A DNA stretch of 64,000 nucleotides from Nocardioides renjunii (GCF_034661175.1 NZ_CP141058.1:2852001-2916000); one strand, 5' to 3'; shown: positions 35,822 through 41,252, counted from the first letter of the stretch. Numbers and translations: made by a program. The notes: generated from the letters alone by a model not told the origin.

Positions 35822-35882
35822 GGTGCGCGCCTCCGGGCGTCGCGAACCAGTTGCGCCGGGGACGCCCGGCGGTCCGGCGCCC

Positions 35883-36101
35883 GATCCCGGTGGTGGCGGC
35901 ACATCGCACTCCCAGCCGGCGCCCGCGCACCATGGGCCGCCACCCCCGTCCACCCGATCCCGATGGTGGCGGCACTTCGCAGCCGAACACGGCCGTCGCG
36001 TGCGATGTGCCGCCACCCCCGCCCACCCGATCCCGGTGGTGGCGGCACATTGCAGCCGAACACGGCCATCGCGTGCGATGTGCCGCCACCCCCGCCAGCC
36101 C
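35883..36101. repeat. three tandem 73-bp hairpin repeats plus a partial copy
   Basis: Units start at 35883, 35956 and 36029, an exact 73-base period, and a half copy follows to about 36126. Each unit holds its own inverted repeat. In unit 3 the arms 36038–36054 and 36074–36090 pair over 17 bases with one wobble (GGTGGCGGCACAT with ATGTGCCGCCACC). Unit 1 is diverged in the middle; units 2 and 3 are nearly identical. There are no spacers, so it is not CRISPR. It lies between proS and the CHAT gene, at the edge of the accessory cluster. Confidence 0.85.
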
Positions 36102-36147
36102 GTGCGCGATGTGCCGCCACCACCAACCGGGGCCGGGGCGCGCGCCC

Positions 36148-38742
36148 TCAGGTGCCGAGGACCGTGAACGAGGCGGCGGTCGCCGTCAGCACGGGGTCGC
36201 CGGCCGCCGCCTCGCGGGCGGCGAGCATCGCGTCGCCCAGGCCGCCGCCCTGCCGCAGCCTCGCGTGCAGCGCGACCATCACATCGACCGTGGCCGCGTC
36301 GTCGACCTCGGCGAGGCTGGAGACCACGCCGGCCGTCCCCATCGAGAGCAGGGCGGCCGCCAGCCCCAGCAGCTCCTGGTCGCCGACGGGGGCCATGACG
36401 CCGGACTCGCAGGCCGAGAGCACCACCCGGTGCGGAGGTCGGTGGAGGCGCTGGAGGTCGTGCACGAGCAGCGGACCGTCGGCGAGCGTGAGCGAGGAGA
36501 AGAGCGGGCTGTCCTCGCGGAAGTGACCGTGGGCCGCGACGTGCGCCAGCGCCGCGCCGTCGAGCGCGGCGAGGGACGCCGCCACCGTGGCCGCGTTACC
36601 GTCGATCACCTCGGCACCCGGGTCCTGGGCGGCGACGGCGGGCACCTCGGCGCCACCACTGCCGAGGCCGGGCCCGACGAGCATCACCCGACGGTCCCGA
36701 TCGGCGGGTGCAGCGGTGCGCGCGCGCAGCCACAGCCGCGCCGACGGGGTGCTCGTGACGGGCCGGTGCGCCAACGACGGGAGCAGCCCCCAGGGCACGC
36801 CCTGCAAGGCACTCGTGCCGGACACGACGACCCGGGCGTCCCCCGCCCGGCCGAGGGCGGGACCGAGGAGGGCCTGCTGCAGCCGGGCACCGGCCACGTC
36901 CAGCTGGGCCCGGCGCCCCCGGGCGGCCTGGCGGAGGGTGAAGAGGGCGAAGTCGACGGCCTTCGTGGCGCCGGCGGCGCCACCCACCTCGAGGCGGCGC
37001 ACACGTCCGCGTCCCGCCACCACGGCGTGCAGGTGACCGCGGATCTCGACGAGCTCGACGAGGACGGCGTCGTCCGCCGCGAGGGCGGCGAGGAGCTCGT
37101 CCACGTCGAGCGACGCCCCCGTCTCCCCCGAGCCGCGCGCGTGGAGCAGACGCTGTCGCACCGACTGCTCGAGCCTCGTCGCGAGCGCCTGGAGGCGATC
37201 GGTCGGCTCGCCGGACGCCCGGGCGTCCGCCAGCCGACGGTGCTGGGCGCGCAGCGCCGCGAGGTCCGCGGCGATGTCCGTCTCGGTCCCGGCGTCGGAG
37301 CGGGCCGAGGGGACCGTGAGAGCGGTGGCCCGCCAGCGCTCTGACCACCGGAGCAGGCGACGGGCCCCACCCGCGGCGAGCGCGGTGCGTGTGCCGAGCT
37401 CCGCGAGCTCCGCGCCGTGGGCGGAGGAGAACGCCCGCAGCTCCTGGCTCCCGAGGCTGGCGCGGTGCTCGTCGAGCGCCGTCAGCCCGCGCTCGCACGC
37501 CCGGAGGACCCCGCCGAGGTCACGTCCGGCGTCGCGGCGCTGTGCCAGGGCGAGCCAGCCGAGGGCCCGGGTCGTGGCGGTGGCCGCGTTGCGGAACCGC
37601 GACGCCTCGTCCAACCAGCGGCCCGCGAGTCCTGCAGCGCGCGGCGATCGTGACCGAGCGGCCAGCTCGGCGCCCAGCACCAGCGCCTGGGGCAGCTCGG
37701 GGGCCCCGGACCCACGTGCCACGTCGATGAGGACCTCGACGCGGTGGAGCAACCGACCCGGTCGGTCGGCCGACCCTGCCCGTGCTGTGAGGGCGAGCAG
37801 CTCGGCGGTCACCCAGGGCTGCAGCCTCCCCTGCGCGCGGAGCAGGCCGCGGGCCTCGTCCGCCGCCGACCAGGCACGAGCGTGGTCCCTCGCCTCGAGC
37901 GCGGCGCCGGCCAGCGCCAGCAGGAGGTCGGCCCGCTCGACCGCGAGCAGGGGGCGGGCGACGATTGCACGCTCGACGACGTCGAGGGCATCGGCGGCAA
38001 GGCCTCCGGCGAGGTAGGCGGCGCACCGGTCGTAGACCAGCTCGGTGTTGGTCTGGCCCACCGCCTCGAAGCGGGCGTGGGCGTCGGCATAGAGCTCGAA
38101 GGCACGGGGAAGGTCGCCCTGCAGGTAGGCCAGCCAACCCTGGTTGTGCACTCCCACGGCGACGGCCCCCGGCTGGCCCAGCGCCTCGTGGAGCTGGATG
38201 GACCGGTCGAACGCGCGGCGGGCCGCGGCGAGGTCGCCCAGACCGATGCTCGTCCATCCGACCAGGTTGAGTGCCCGGGCCTGCCACACGTCGTCGCCCG
38301 ACCCGTCCAGCAGGGCGAGCGCCCGCCGCAGGTCGGCCGCCCCCTCCTCGAGCTGGGCGAAGTAGTAGGCGCGGACCCGGGCACGTCGGACGAGCACCCG
38401 GGCCAGCGGAACACCGCCCAGCCCGGCAGCGGCCAGGTCGAGCTGCGCCAGGCCCTCACGGGTGCGGCCGGCGTGGACCAGGGAGCCGCCGAGGGTCGCC
38501 CGCACGTCGGCCTCGCGCTCGGCGTCCACGCGCCGCGCGAGCCTCAGTGCCTCGCGGATGTGGGCCAGGGCCTCGTCGGTCTCGCCCAGGTCGCGCAGCA
38601 CGATCCCCACCACCTGGTGACCGACCGAGGACACGGCGGGGTCGGGGTCGGGGACCAGGTCGGCCATCGCTGTCGCACGTGCGGCCGCCGGGTCGGCGAA
38701 GAGCGTGCGCAGCAGCTCCTCGGCCTCGACCCTGGTCACCAT
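36148..38742 (-). CDS. TPR–CHAT protein (caspase-like protease)
   Basis: The 864-residue protein has an N-terminal half of TPR-like helical repeats (about residues 10–420, including GDLAAARRAFDRSIQLHEALG and GDLPRAFELYADAHARFEAVG). A helical linker leads to a C-terminal CHAT domain (about residues 580–864). The caspase-type catalytic pair is visible: His738 in HVAAHGHF and Cys778 in VLSACESG. CHAT proteases are cysteine peptidases such as separase and gasdermin-activating bacterial caspases. No signal peptide or membrane segment is seen. The ATG at 38742 has an AAGGA ribosome site. It is divergent from a subtilase across 82 bases and belongs to the sigma-factor cluster to the right. It is likely a switchable protease whose TPR part senses a partner. 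Confidence 0.9.
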   Translation of the reverse strand: MVTRVEAEELLRTLFADPAAARATAMADLVPDPDPAVSSVGHQVVGIVLRDLGETDEALAHIREALRLARRVDAEREADVRATLGGSLVHAGRTREGLAQLDLAAAGLGGVPLARVLVRRARVRAYYFAQLEEGAADLRRALALLDGSGDDVWQARALNLVGWTSIGLGDLAAARRAFDRSIQLHEALGQPGAVAVGVHNQGWLAYLQGDLPRAFELYADAHARFEAVGQTNTELVYDRCAAYLAGGLAADALDVVERAIVARPLLAVERADLLLALAGAALEARDHARAWSAADEARGLLRAQGRLQPWVTAELLALTARAGSADRPGRLLHRVEVLIDVARGSGAPELPQALVLGAELAARSRSPRAAGLAGRWLDEASRFRNAATATTRALGWLALAQRRDAGRDLGGVLRACERGLTALDEHRASLGSQELRAFSSAHGAELAELGTRTALAAGGARRLLRWSERWRATALTVPSARSDAGTETDIAADLAALRAQHRRLADARASGEPTDRLQALATRLEQSVRQRLLHARGSGETGASLDVDELLAALAADDAVLVELVEIRGHLHAVVAGRGRVRRLEVGGAAGATKAVDFALFTLRQAARGRRAQLDVAGARLQQALLGPALGRAGDARVVVSGTSALQGVPWGLLPSLAHRPVTSTPSARLWLRARTAAPADRDRRVMLVGPGLGSGGAEVPAVAAQDPGAEVIDGNAATVAASLAALDGAALAHVAAHGHFREDSPLFSSLTLADGPLLVHDLQRLHRPPHRVVLSACESGVMAPVGDQELLGLAAALLSMGTAGVVSSLAEVDDAATVDVMVALHARLRQGGGLGDAMLAAREAAAGDPVLTATAASFTVLGT

Positions 38743-38824
38743 GGTCCGGCCATCCTTGCCGATCCGGCCGCCGAGTTGGCACGAAACCATTCCGGCGGCG
38801 ACGGCGCGTCGCTAGCGTCGCATC
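38743..38824. promoter_or_regulatory. divergent promoter region between the CHAT and subtilase genes
   Basis: Two readings are possible on the plus strand. TAGCGT (38813–38818) ends six bases before the subtilase ATG, the leaderless pattern of this window. Alternatively GAAACC (38783–38788) followed after 18 bases by CGTC (38807–38810) resembles a promoter for an ECF-type sigma factor, such as the one encoded at 40585. The palindrome CGCTAGCG lies at 38810–38817. No clear promoter was found towards the CHAT gene. Confidence 0.4.
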
Positions 38825-40105
38825 ATGAGCGACTGGAAGATCGGCGACGACCGGCGACGACGCAGCACCGACCAGCTCCGCGACCTCCGCGCGGCCAACG
38901 ACCGACAGGTGGCCTGGGACACCGAGGCGCCCGCCGACTTCACCTACCTGTTCCACCCCCACCACGTGCTGGTCGGGGCCGAGGACGCCGGCGACTTCGA
39001 GGCCGCCGTGGCGCGCCTCGACAAGGGTGTCCTCGACGAGGCGCCTCGCCGTGACGACGTACGACTGCTCGGGGGCGACCTCGTGCGCTACGTGCTGGCC
39101 GAGCGGCCCGGAGGGCAGTCCGTCCCCGACATCCTCGACCTGCTCGAGGATGGCGGCCTCCGACGGGGCGCCGCGTCACCCGACCACTGGGTGCACGTCT
39201 CCCCCGGTGGGGGCAGCGGCAGCGCCTGCCCGGCCGTCGAGCCCGAGGAGACCGGGCTCGCCGAGCCGTGGCCCCCCGTCGCACCGCAGGAGAAGGGCCA
39301 CGACGTGCGCGTCGTGGTCGTCGACACCGGCTGGAACCCACCGTCCGGCAACGACCCCCGCACGCCCTGGCTCGACGGGGTCGAGGGCGACGACGAGCTC
39401 AACGGTCCTGACCTGCGGCCCTATGCCGGGCACGGCACGTTCATCGCCGGGGTCGTGCGTTGCATCGCCCCCCTCACGACGATCTTCGTCGAGGGCTTCG
39501 CCGTCGGCGGCGTGGGCGGCGGCGGCATCCTCGAGTCCGAGATCGTGCGCCGGCTCGAGGAGGCCATCGTCCGCAAGCCGCAGGTGATCAACCTGTCCGC
39601 CGGCTGCCGCACCCGCCACGACCTGCCGTCGATCGCCTTCTCGCGGTTCCACCGCAGGCACCTCGAGGGCACGGACTGCGTGCTCGTGGCCGCCGCCGGC
39701 AACGACTCGTGGGCGGCACCCTTCTGGCCCGCGGCCTTCGATTGGGCCGTCGGCGTGGGATCGCTCGACCGCGACGGACGCGTGTCGGCCTTCTCCAACT
39801 ACGGCGTCTCCGCCGACGTCTACGCCCTCGGCCGCAACGTGGTCAACGCCTTCCCCGACGGCACCTTCGTGTGCCACGAGTCGCCCGACAAGGGCGACGT
39901 CCGGGTCTTCAGCACCGGGATGGCCCGGTGGAGCGGGACCTCCTTCGCCGCGCCGATCGTGGCGGGCCTCATCGCCCGCGAGATCAGCGAGACCGGGGCA
40001 TCGGCCGCAGACGCACGGGACGCGGTCCTGGCGCGTGCGACGTACGACTCCGACCCCCAGGTCGGACCCCACGTCGAGCTTCGCCAGCCCTACCCGGGCC
40101 CGTAG
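38825..40105 (+). CDS. cytoplasmic S8 (subtilisin-like) serine peptidase
   Basis: The 426-residue protein has a complete subtilase triad: Asp167 (VVVVDTGW), His203 (AGHGTFIAGV) and Ser373 (SGTSFAAPIVAG), with the oxyanion Asn293 (AAAGNDS). Residues 1–160 form an extension without a signal peptide. It includes DFTYLFHPHHVLVGAEDAGDFEAAVARLD, so the enzyme is probably cytoplasmic, unlike most secreted subtilases. It is divergent from the CHAT gene and convergent with the small protein gene, whose stop lies 24 bases away. With the CHAT protein it makes a two-protease locus under a local sigma factor. Confidence 0.92.
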   Translation: MSDWKIGDDRRRRSTDQLRDLRAANDRQVAWDTEAPADFTYLFHPHHVLVGAEDAGDFEAAVARLDKGVLDEAPRRDDVRLLGGDLVRYVLAERPGGQSVPDILDLLEDGGLRRGAASPDHWVHVSPGGGSGSACPAVEPEETGLAEPWPPVAPQEKGHDVRVVVVDTGWNPPSGNDPRTPWLDGVEGDDELNGPDLRPYAGHGTFIAGVVRCIAPLTTIFVEGFAVGGVGGGGILESEIVRRLEEAIVRKPQVINLSAGCRTRHDLPSIAFSRFHRRHLEGTDCVLVAAAGNDSWAAPFWPAAFDWAVGVGSLDRDGRVSAFSNYGVSADVYALGRNVVNAFPDGTFVCHESPDKGDVRVFSTGMARWSGTSFAAPIVAGLIAREISETGASAADARDAVLARATYDSDPQVGPHVELRQPYPGP

Positions 40106-40129
40106 CGTCGACGTTGCCGGGCCGAGCCC

Positions 40130-40588
40130 TCAGAGCTCGAGCCAGCGGCTGGTCGCCGACCCGCCCGCGTGGCGCACCGTGAAACGGACCGAACCGGTCG
40201 GCTCCGCCGCGATCGCGAGGAACCCCACCTCGTCGAGGGCGGTGGCCCAGCTCTGCCCGTCGGACGTCTCGAGCACGACCTCGACGGCCCCCATGTCGCC
40301 GTCGAGGTCGAGCAGCTGACCGCGCACCTGGCCCTCGTCGAGCTCGACCTCGAGCGACCAGCCCTCCCCCGCGGTGAAGTGGAGCATCCGCGACGTGGCG
40401 AGCCCCCTCACCTGTGCGGCCGGCTCGTCGCGCGAGTCACGGACCAGGACGAGCATCTCCCACTCGTCGTCGAGGCCGGCGGCGGCCACGGCCGCGATCA
40501 TGGTCGCCACGAGTCCGGGCGGCGGCGGGTCGTACGTCAGCCACATGTCACGCAGTTCCTCGAGGAGAGCGGCGTCCCCAGTAGTCAT
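40130..40588 (-). CDS. small sigma-factor-linked protein, unknown function
   Basis: The 152-residue protein has an N-terminal helical part (LEELRDMWLTYDPPPPGLVATMIAAVAAAGLDD) and a beta-rich C-terminal part. The C-terminal part resembles carboxypeptidase-regulatory or transthyretin-like sandwiches (SLEVELDEGQVRGQLLDL…GFLAIAAEPTGSVRFTV). There is no zinc-binding anti-sigma motif and no membrane segment. It overlaps the sigma gene by four bases (ATGA), so they are co-translated. A role as a sigma partner or as an adaptor to the proteases is inferred from coupling alone. Confidence 0.65.
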   Translation of the reverse strand: MTTGDAALLEELRDMWLTYDPPPPGLVATMIAAVAAAGLDDEWEMLVLVRDSRDEPAAQVRGLATSRMLHFTAGEGWSLEVELDEGQVRGQLLDLDGDMGAVEVVLETSDGQSWATALDEVGFLAIAAEPTGSVRFTVRHAGGSATSRWLEL

Positions 40589-41178
40589 CGCTCGCCTCCT
40601 CTCTCCAGTGCGGTTCGGACCTTGGCCAGGCAGCGGGCCCGGGTGGGTCCGATGCTCCCGACGGGCATGTCGAGGTCCTGGCTCAAGGATTGGTAGTCGG
40701 GTCGGTCCATGAAGGCCACGACCCGCAGCAGCTTGCGGCACCGCTCGTCGACCGATGCCACCGCCTTCCACAGCCGTGATCCCTCGTCGCCGAGCACGGC
40801 GAGCGCCTCGGCCGACTCCGCGTCCGGGAGCACGGCGTGCAGCGTCTCGTCCTGCACCGGTGTCGCCCGACGTGCGGTCCGGGCGTGTGCGGCTGCGCCG
40901 CGCCTGGCTGAGGTGATCAGCCAGGACGCGACCGCCTTGGGGTCGTCGATGGTCTGGTGCAGGCGTACGAACCCCAGCCAGGTCGCCTGAATCACGTCCT
41001 CAGCCGACTGGCGGTCGTGCCCGTAGGCCCTCACCACGTGCCAGAGCACCGGTGTCATCGTGGAGACCAGATCGTCCACCGCGCTGGCGTCCCCCGAACG
41101 CCAGGCGATGAACGCCCCACTGGCCAAGTCCCACGGTGACTGGTCGAGCTGCCCCTCAGCTCTTCGGTCCTCTGACAT
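40585..41178 (-). CDS. ECF-like RNA polymerase sigma factor
   Basis: The 197-residue protein has sigma region 2 (DLVSTMTPVLWHVVRAYGHDRQSAEDVIQATWLGFVRL) and region 4 (VDERCRKLLRVVAFMDRPDYQSLSQDLDMPVGSIGPTRARCLAKV). It has no region 1 or 3, as in ECF and related group 4 factors. Three in-frame ATGs lie at 41196, 41187 and 41178. The last is chosen because it has GGGGAC about ten bases upstream and a GACAAT seven bases before it. It is co-translated with the 152-residue protein. Its targets probably include the nearby subtilase and CHAT genes. Confidence 0.88.
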   Translation of the reverse strand: MSEDRRAEGQLDQSPWDLASGAFIAWRSGDASAVDDLVSTMTPVLWHVVRAYGHDRQSAEDVIQATWLGFVRLHQTIDDPKAVASWLITSARRGAAAHARTARRATPVQDETLHAVLPDAESAEALAVLGDEGSRLWKAVASVDERCRKLLRVVAFMDRPDYQSLSQDLDMPVGSIGPTRARCLAKVRTALERGGER

Positions 41179-41252
41179 GGTGACCATTGTCCCCATGTCA
41201 GTAGAGGAGGGAGCACCCGCCGTGCTGATACACCGCGAGCGAGATTTCTTTC

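Follow-up and report, generated by a model that had tools for sequence, protein, structure and literature searches.

A widespread actinobacterial module of an ECF sigma factor, a small candidate partner, a TPR-CHAT protease and a pro-subtilisin-like protease: a tentative CRISPR-independent proteolytic cascade

Around the extracytoplasmic function (ECF) sigma factors of group ECF54, genes for a carboxypeptidase, a subtilase and a CHAT protein have been described as conserved (PMC8999054), and a proteolytic control operating without anti-sigma factor has been proposed for these sigma factors (PMC8999054, citing Casas-Pastor 2021 and Huang 2015). In the Craspase/CASP circuit of type III-E CRISPR systems, the tetratricopeptide repeat (TPR)-CHAT protease Csx29 cleaves Csx30, an inhibitor of an ECF sigma factor (PMC10028731). 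EACC2/caspase and TRADD-N systems also link a caspase-like protease to an ECF sigma factor and a TPR protein (PMC8195603). Here, we analyzed a 64,000-nucleotide stretch of the chromosome of Nocardioides renjunii (NZ_CP141058.1:2852001-2916000, hereafter the window), focusing on a module of four genes encoding a TPR-CHAT protease, an S8-family subtilase, a small protein of 152 residues and an ECF sigma factor. A sequence-only reading of the window had noticed these genes lying together and had regarded them as one unit with the sigma factor as its regulatory centre. All four were found at this place, and their families form one real and widely conserved unit.

Families were assigned by Pfam and NCBIfam. 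The first gene (36,148-38,742, minus strand) encodes a caspase-like protease of 864 residues with a CHAT domain (E = 2.6e-26) and TPRs; its open reading frame extends to 38,790, but the resulting protein of 880 residues is 16 residues too long by comparison with relatives, and the start was set at 38,742 because relatives begin near there. The subtilase (38,825-40,105, plus strand, 426 residues) matches Peptidase_S8 (E = 1.7e-22). The sigma factor (40,585-41,187, minus strand, 200 residues, with a possible second start at 41,178) matches TIGR02937 (sigma70-ECF, E = 7.8e-16, residues 36-194) and Sigma70_r2; its profile matches ECF sigma structures, and a GSIGPTR-type motif is conserved in region 4 of the alignment. 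The small protein (40,130-40,588, minus strand) alone had no Pfam or NCBIfam family match. An ECF sigma factor with regions 2 and 4, neighboured by subtilase, CHAT and carboxypeptidase-regulatory-like genes, corresponds to the ECF54 context, and by this context, as opposed to a group profile, the module is of ECF54 type. The grouping of these genes is therefore already known, since the 2022 review describes it. No experimental study of ECF54 was found among open-licence papers and, relative to that literature, what seems new here is the nature of the small protein and its tie to the sigma factor, a promoter lying ahead of the sigma and S8 genes and not of CHAT, and the zymogen fold of the subtilase. 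While the module shares with the ECF54 context an actinobacterial ECF sigma factor with CHAT, subtilase and "carboxypeptidase" neighbours, it departs from the published description in that its "carboxypeptidase" carries no peptidase, appears as the closest partner of the sigma factor and is an anti-sigma candidate.

The unity of the module was open to refutation by a co-occurrence search across actinobacteria, which was strongly positive. Profile searches over 395 genomes of the class Actinomycetes (thresholds of 1e-5 for the small protein and 1e-60 for CHAT) recovered the small protein in 128 genomes and CHAT in 124, with 121 genomes carrying both (Fisher p ~1e-88, uncorrected for phylogeny). 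At the order level, CHAT was detected in 70 of 148 genomes (E <= 1e-20) and the small protein, by single-sequence search, in 55, nearly all of its matches lying close to CHAT matches. The association spans about ten distinct gene orders and holds where the sigma-small protein pair and the CHAT-S8 pair stand megabases apart or on different contigs: among 12 genomes picked for an isolated or distant sigma-small protein pair, nine contained CHAT, and one of the remaining three is 75% complete. The module is also present in other classes of the phylum, with a patchy presence within the genus. No fifth recurring gene was found around it, the recurring neighbours having a housekeeping appearance. 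Spread of the module by plasmids was considered and set aside, a partial CHAT match being present in a single record out of 72,556 plasmid records.

Within this unit, the sigma factor and the small protein are the most tightly associated members. In 111 of 118 loci, the small protein gene is immediately preceded by the sigma gene in the same orientation, and in the window the two genes overlap by 4 nt (ATGA), making translational coupling plausible. The AlphaFold2 model of the small protein (predicted local distance difference test, pLDDT, 87.9) comprises two helices (residues 3-18 and 26-42), a linker region with Arg61 and a beta-sandwich (67-152). A structure search with the beta-sandwich returned middling matches, the best being the copper-resistance protein CrdA (Z 8.5, root-mean-square deviation (rmsd) 2.0 over 83 residues). 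CarboxypepD_reg matched 22 of the 55 members of the family (best 2.4e-7), a resemblance that probably explains the label "carboxypeptidase" in the literature; a carboxypeptidase proper is ruled out by the length of 152 residues and the regulatory-like fold, with no catalytic domain. Arg61 was rejected as an invariant cleavage site, being invariant in 55 members and kept in 112 of 138 at the phylum scale. Evolutionary distances of the sigma factor correlated with those of the N-terminal half of the small protein (r = 0.84), and this association persisted as a partial correlation given the C-terminal half, CHAT and S8 (0.68, against 0.17 for the C-terminal half). The N-terminal half exceeded the C-terminal half in 200 of 200 subsamples and in 29 non-redundant loci (0.52 against 0.25), and the sigma factor showed no positive association with CHAT (-0.24) and little with S8 (0.11) once the small protein was controlled. 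These covariations are suggestive of a direct contact between the helical part of the small protein and the sigma factor, and designate the small protein as a candidate soluble anti-sigma factor or adaptor, partner of the sigma factor. As in the canonical pairs RseA-RpoE and RsiW-SigW, the partner gene follows the sigma gene immediately, a promoter lies ahead and proteases would take part in the control; unlike in these pairs, the partner shows no evident membrane segment and no recognised anti-sigma domain and seems to be a soluble cytoplasmic protein, and the proteases are CHAT and S8.

A candidate -35/-10 promoter motif, GTATCA-N16-CTC, lies 5' of the sigma gene (41,207-41,231, minus strand). 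GTATCA was found 5' of 58 of 130 sigma genes, against 2.1 expected and none for a reversed-hexamer control, and the full motif in 45 of these 130 upstream regions, with a spacing of 16 in 33 cases and 17 in 12, other spacings being rare; the counts come from the very loci in whose alignments the motif and its spacing had been spotted, and related loci among them are non-independent. Such wide sharing of a motif 5' of ECF genes usually indicates autoregulation. In relatives, 20 of 120 S8 genes also have the motif upstream. In contrast, it was found 5' of CHAT on the CHAT strand in none of 130 cases, 11 copies located there facing the opposite way, toward divergent genes. In the N. renjunii genome, the GTATCA-N16-CTCC form has a single copy, 5' of the sigma gene, and S8 is preceded instead by CTAGCGTC, a -10-like element just 5' of its start codon (38,812-38,819, plus strand) that is conserved across the upstream alignments of the close clade. 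The idea that one transcription factor governs both proteases is consequently at most half right: a sigma-type motif does precede S8 in relatives, CHAT has none, and N. renjunii itself carries the strict motif only 5' of the sigma gene.

Both proteases look active, judging from active sites conserved from genus to phylum. The catalytic residues His738 and Cys778 of CHAT, correctly numbered by the sequence-only reading if the protein starts at 38,742, are invariant in 53 aligned relatives and in 61 of 61 more distant loci. Those of the subtilase, for which the same reading had given Asp167, His203 and Ser373, are likewise correct and, together with Asn293, invariant across 50 aligned relatives; in distant loci, His203 and Asn293 are kept in 56 of 56, Ser373 in 53 of 53 and Asp167 in 50 of 56. 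The AlphaFold2 model of the subtilase (pLDDT 90.8) consists of an inhibitor-like N-terminal domain (~30-124), a linker (~125-140) of low confidence (pLDDT under 50 at residues 127-136) and a catalytic domain (~145-424). Compared end to end with known structures, it comes closest to unprocessed pro-subtilisin E, with Z 30.1 and an rmsd of 3.8 over 307 residues; PCSK9 and pro-Tk-subtilisin come next. An Asp-His-Ser triad preceded by an N-terminal propeptide domain, as seen in the predicted structure, is the arrangement of pro-subtilisins, and because this fold comes with no evident signal peptide, the protein reads as an intracellular pro-enzyme. The linker between the pro and catalytic domains is the obvious candidate for a processing site. 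In the window it carries a CPAxEP-type motif (CPAVEP), and another branch of the family (16 loci; those listed are L096-L099, L105-L112, L123, L125 and L126) displays 3-8 tandem six-residue repeats that separate the catalytic domain from the N-terminal region; in one case the unit has seven residues, and the units vary by lineage (SPFTRG, DPYDSS, TPYYAG or GHPITS type). At loci L203, L204 and L209, a tandem pair of S8 genes stands beside CHAT, the sigma-small protein pair being elsewhere in the genome.

Taken together, these features could describe a switch in which CHAT relieves a soluble, anti-sigma-like small protein and thereby frees an autoregulated sigma factor, an account that we hold tentatively, at a little less than an even chance. 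The N-terminal helices of the small protein would hold the sigma factor inactive, and its beta-sandwich would present it to the protease arm of the system. The TPR part of CHAT may sense a stress ligand or a damaged protein, upon which the CHAT domain would cut either the pro-subtilase, in its linker, or the small protein, where the linker around Arg61 is the site to consider first. CHAT is placed upstream in this cascade because it lacks a sigma-type promoter. The freed sigma factor would then act through GTATCA-N16-CTC to switch on the operon that encodes it; in many relatives it would also raise the subtilase, whose pro-enzyme would amplify or execute the proteolytic response. The genomes shared by CHAT and the small protein, the conserved sigma-small protein order and the covariation of the N-terminal half argue for this scheme, as do the presence of CHAT elsewhere in genomes where the sigma-small protein pair stands alone, the promoter pattern, the pro-subtilisin fold and the conserved catalytic residues. 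The complete version, a CRISPR-independent cascade of sigma factor, soluble anti-sigma factor, TPR-CHAT protease and pro-subtilisin in Actinomycetota, where a cut by CHAT frees the sigma factor and the sigma factor in turn induces a cytoplasmic subtilase, is more doubtful.

The cleavage of Csx30 by Csx29 offers a precedent for this relief of the sigma factor by CHAT. Like the Craspase/CASP circuit, the module combines a TPR-CHAT protease, an ECF sigma factor and an additional protein that possibly inhibits the latter; unlike it, the module adds a pro-subtilase, and its CHAT protein scored far below the cut-off of the Csx29 model (NF041237, 26.6 bits against 300). The structure-database matches of the small protein, whose helical part was barely tested, included no Csx30, and the CRISPR effector Cas7-11 was neither among the direct neighbours here (proS, GNAT and ispG) nor among the housekeeping-like genes that recur around the module elsewhere, although no dedicated Cas7-11 profile was run. 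The module therefore fits a system that may work like the Csx29-Csx30-CASP-sigma circuit without being a member of it. The EACC2/caspase and TRADD-N systems differ in their domains, their caspase coming with EACC2 and a DUF1822 TPR protein, and no subtilase or carboxypeptidase-regulatory-like protein appearing in the available portion of their description (PMC8195603). Several points weigh against relief of the sigma factor by CHAT. The published ECF54 view is one of regulation without anti-sigma factor, and neither sequence nor fold comparisons tied the small protein to any known anti-sigma domain, its helical part having been barely tested. In addition, Arg61 is not invariant and may be structural, shared ancestry and the linkage of the sigma and small protein genes both confound the distance correlations, and binding, cleavage and the pairing of each protease with its substrate are inferred only.

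The published ECF54 proposal (PMC8999054) corresponds to an alternative in which the sigma factor itself is the substrate: the subtilase and/or CHAT would degrade it until stress stops the degradation, the small protein acting as an adaptor or chaperone and not as an anti-sigma factor. The predicted activity and cytoplasmic location of both proteases agree with this scenario, which we nonetheless regard as unlikely, since the divergence of the sigma factor tracks the small protein and, after controlling for the latter, neither CHAT nor S8, and since the sigma-type promoter of S8 in relatives fits an output better, even though a negative feedback by degradation would be compatible with it. A broader role in quality control, with CHAT and S8 degrading damaged cytoplasmic proteins and the sigma factor and its partner setting their levels outside any dedicated cascade, would be consistent with the broad, mostly chromosomal distribution and with the restriction to four constant genes with no fifth partner. 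The constancy of this composition and the specific covariation of sigma factor and small protein are rather those of a dedicated switch, and the lack of a sigma-type promoter ahead of CHAT makes quality control less convincing still, so that we consider it distinctly improbable.

CHAT and S8 proteases are found in defence systems, and the sequence-only reading had leaned towards a role in conflict or programmed death. Under such abortive infection, the TPRs would sense phage or damage and CHAT would mature the pro-subtilase into a lethal protease, the sigma factor tuning dosage only. The zymogen fold and the patchy presence within the genus are in line with this possibility, along with weak resemblances in PADLOC-DB of S8 to a generic "subtilase" (best, 1.9e-9) and partially to IetS (1.1e-7), and of CHAT to BovA (0.02). 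These resemblances are however far below the family level, for which PADLOC-DB gave no match, and the single partial plasmid match, the recurrence of housekeeping neighbours and the fixed chromosomal site within the clade speak against a conflict function. Neither PADLOC nor the plasmid records nor the neighbouring genes pointed to phage defence or cell death (the searches did not extend to viral contigs, phage records or metagenomes). The conflict role was thus not borne out, and its probability appears low.

N. renjunii is a soil actinobacterium with a 4.4-Mb chromosome, on which this CHAT gene is single-copy, and its closest named relative is Nocardioides sp. zg-1308. In the window the module is placed between proS and GNAT-ispG, and the view that it interrupts an otherwise conserved backbone was confirmed: in several module-free Nocardioides (e.g. 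L243, L247 and L251) proS adjoins GNAT, and the 13 named carriers have the module there, flanked by GNAT, ispG and proS wherever contigs permit. Twelve of these 13 display the compact four-gene arrangement, the exception (L073) having an insert of ~4.3 kb between the small protein and the subtilase. In one genome (G127), the sigma factor and small protein are kept between proS and GNAT and CHAT and S8 lie ~0.9 Mb away. The chromosomal site of the module is stable within the Nocardioides clade. The hairpin repeats that had been thought to edge the module do exist on the proS side (35,880-36,124), as 3.1 copies of a 73-bp unit made of GGTGGTGGCGGCACATCGC and its inverse, and on that side only. 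The half-sites of GGTGGTGGCGGCACATCGC gave 60 matches (2 for a reversed-pattern control) at about a dozen genomic places, some of them with longer arrays, and make up a REP-like family. Being one-sided and dispersed genome-wide, these repeats were ruled out as borders; their presence at about a dozen other sites means that they do not mark the module. A near-perfect palindrome, GACATGGGGAC-AATG-GTCACCATGTC, spans the sigma start (41,172-41,201) and is kept in the Nocardioides clade; it is a possible operator.

A genome-wide regulon read through the motif was also discarded, the CTCC form yielding the sigma promoter alone in N. renjunii; less strict matches include an identical repeat, present twice, and a doubtful site near 3.166 Mb beside a small predicted secreted protein. 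Genes 3' of other motif copies in relatives shared no family (C1 papain-like, NAL1/trypsin-like, PASTA, HopA1-like and an ORF126-like small protein) and had no PADLOC match; gene calls at distant loci are mechanical open frames, and some of the frames downstream of the motif are doubtful. At L126 (2926-5061, minus strand), a protein of 712 residues lacking any Pfam match stands behind GTATCA-N16-CTC just downstream of CHAT, a possible sigma target that opens with PITHGG, a string reminiscent of the subtilase repeats. Right after CHAT and behind the same motif, two Nocardioides conserve a 105-aa protein with a weak ORF126-like match only (L105:5582-5896 and L110:4920-5234, both minus strand). 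Other motif copies near the module lie by a HopA1-family protein (PF17914, 5.4e-13; L176:3469-4398, minus strand) and by papain-like and NAL1/trypsin-like proteins (L174:7631-8338, minus strand, and L268:9471-10949, plus strand), which may be extra sigma targets in single lineages.

The mechanism of ECF54 has so far only been proposed in a review (PMC8999054). The module is present in about a third of the sampled Actinomycetes genomes, and what it senses is therefore a general question, for which the GTATCA promoter provides a ready reporter of the inducing signal. If the small protein is indeed an anti-sigma factor cut by CHAT, the sigma circuit of Craspase would have a widespread, CRISPR-free counterpart.

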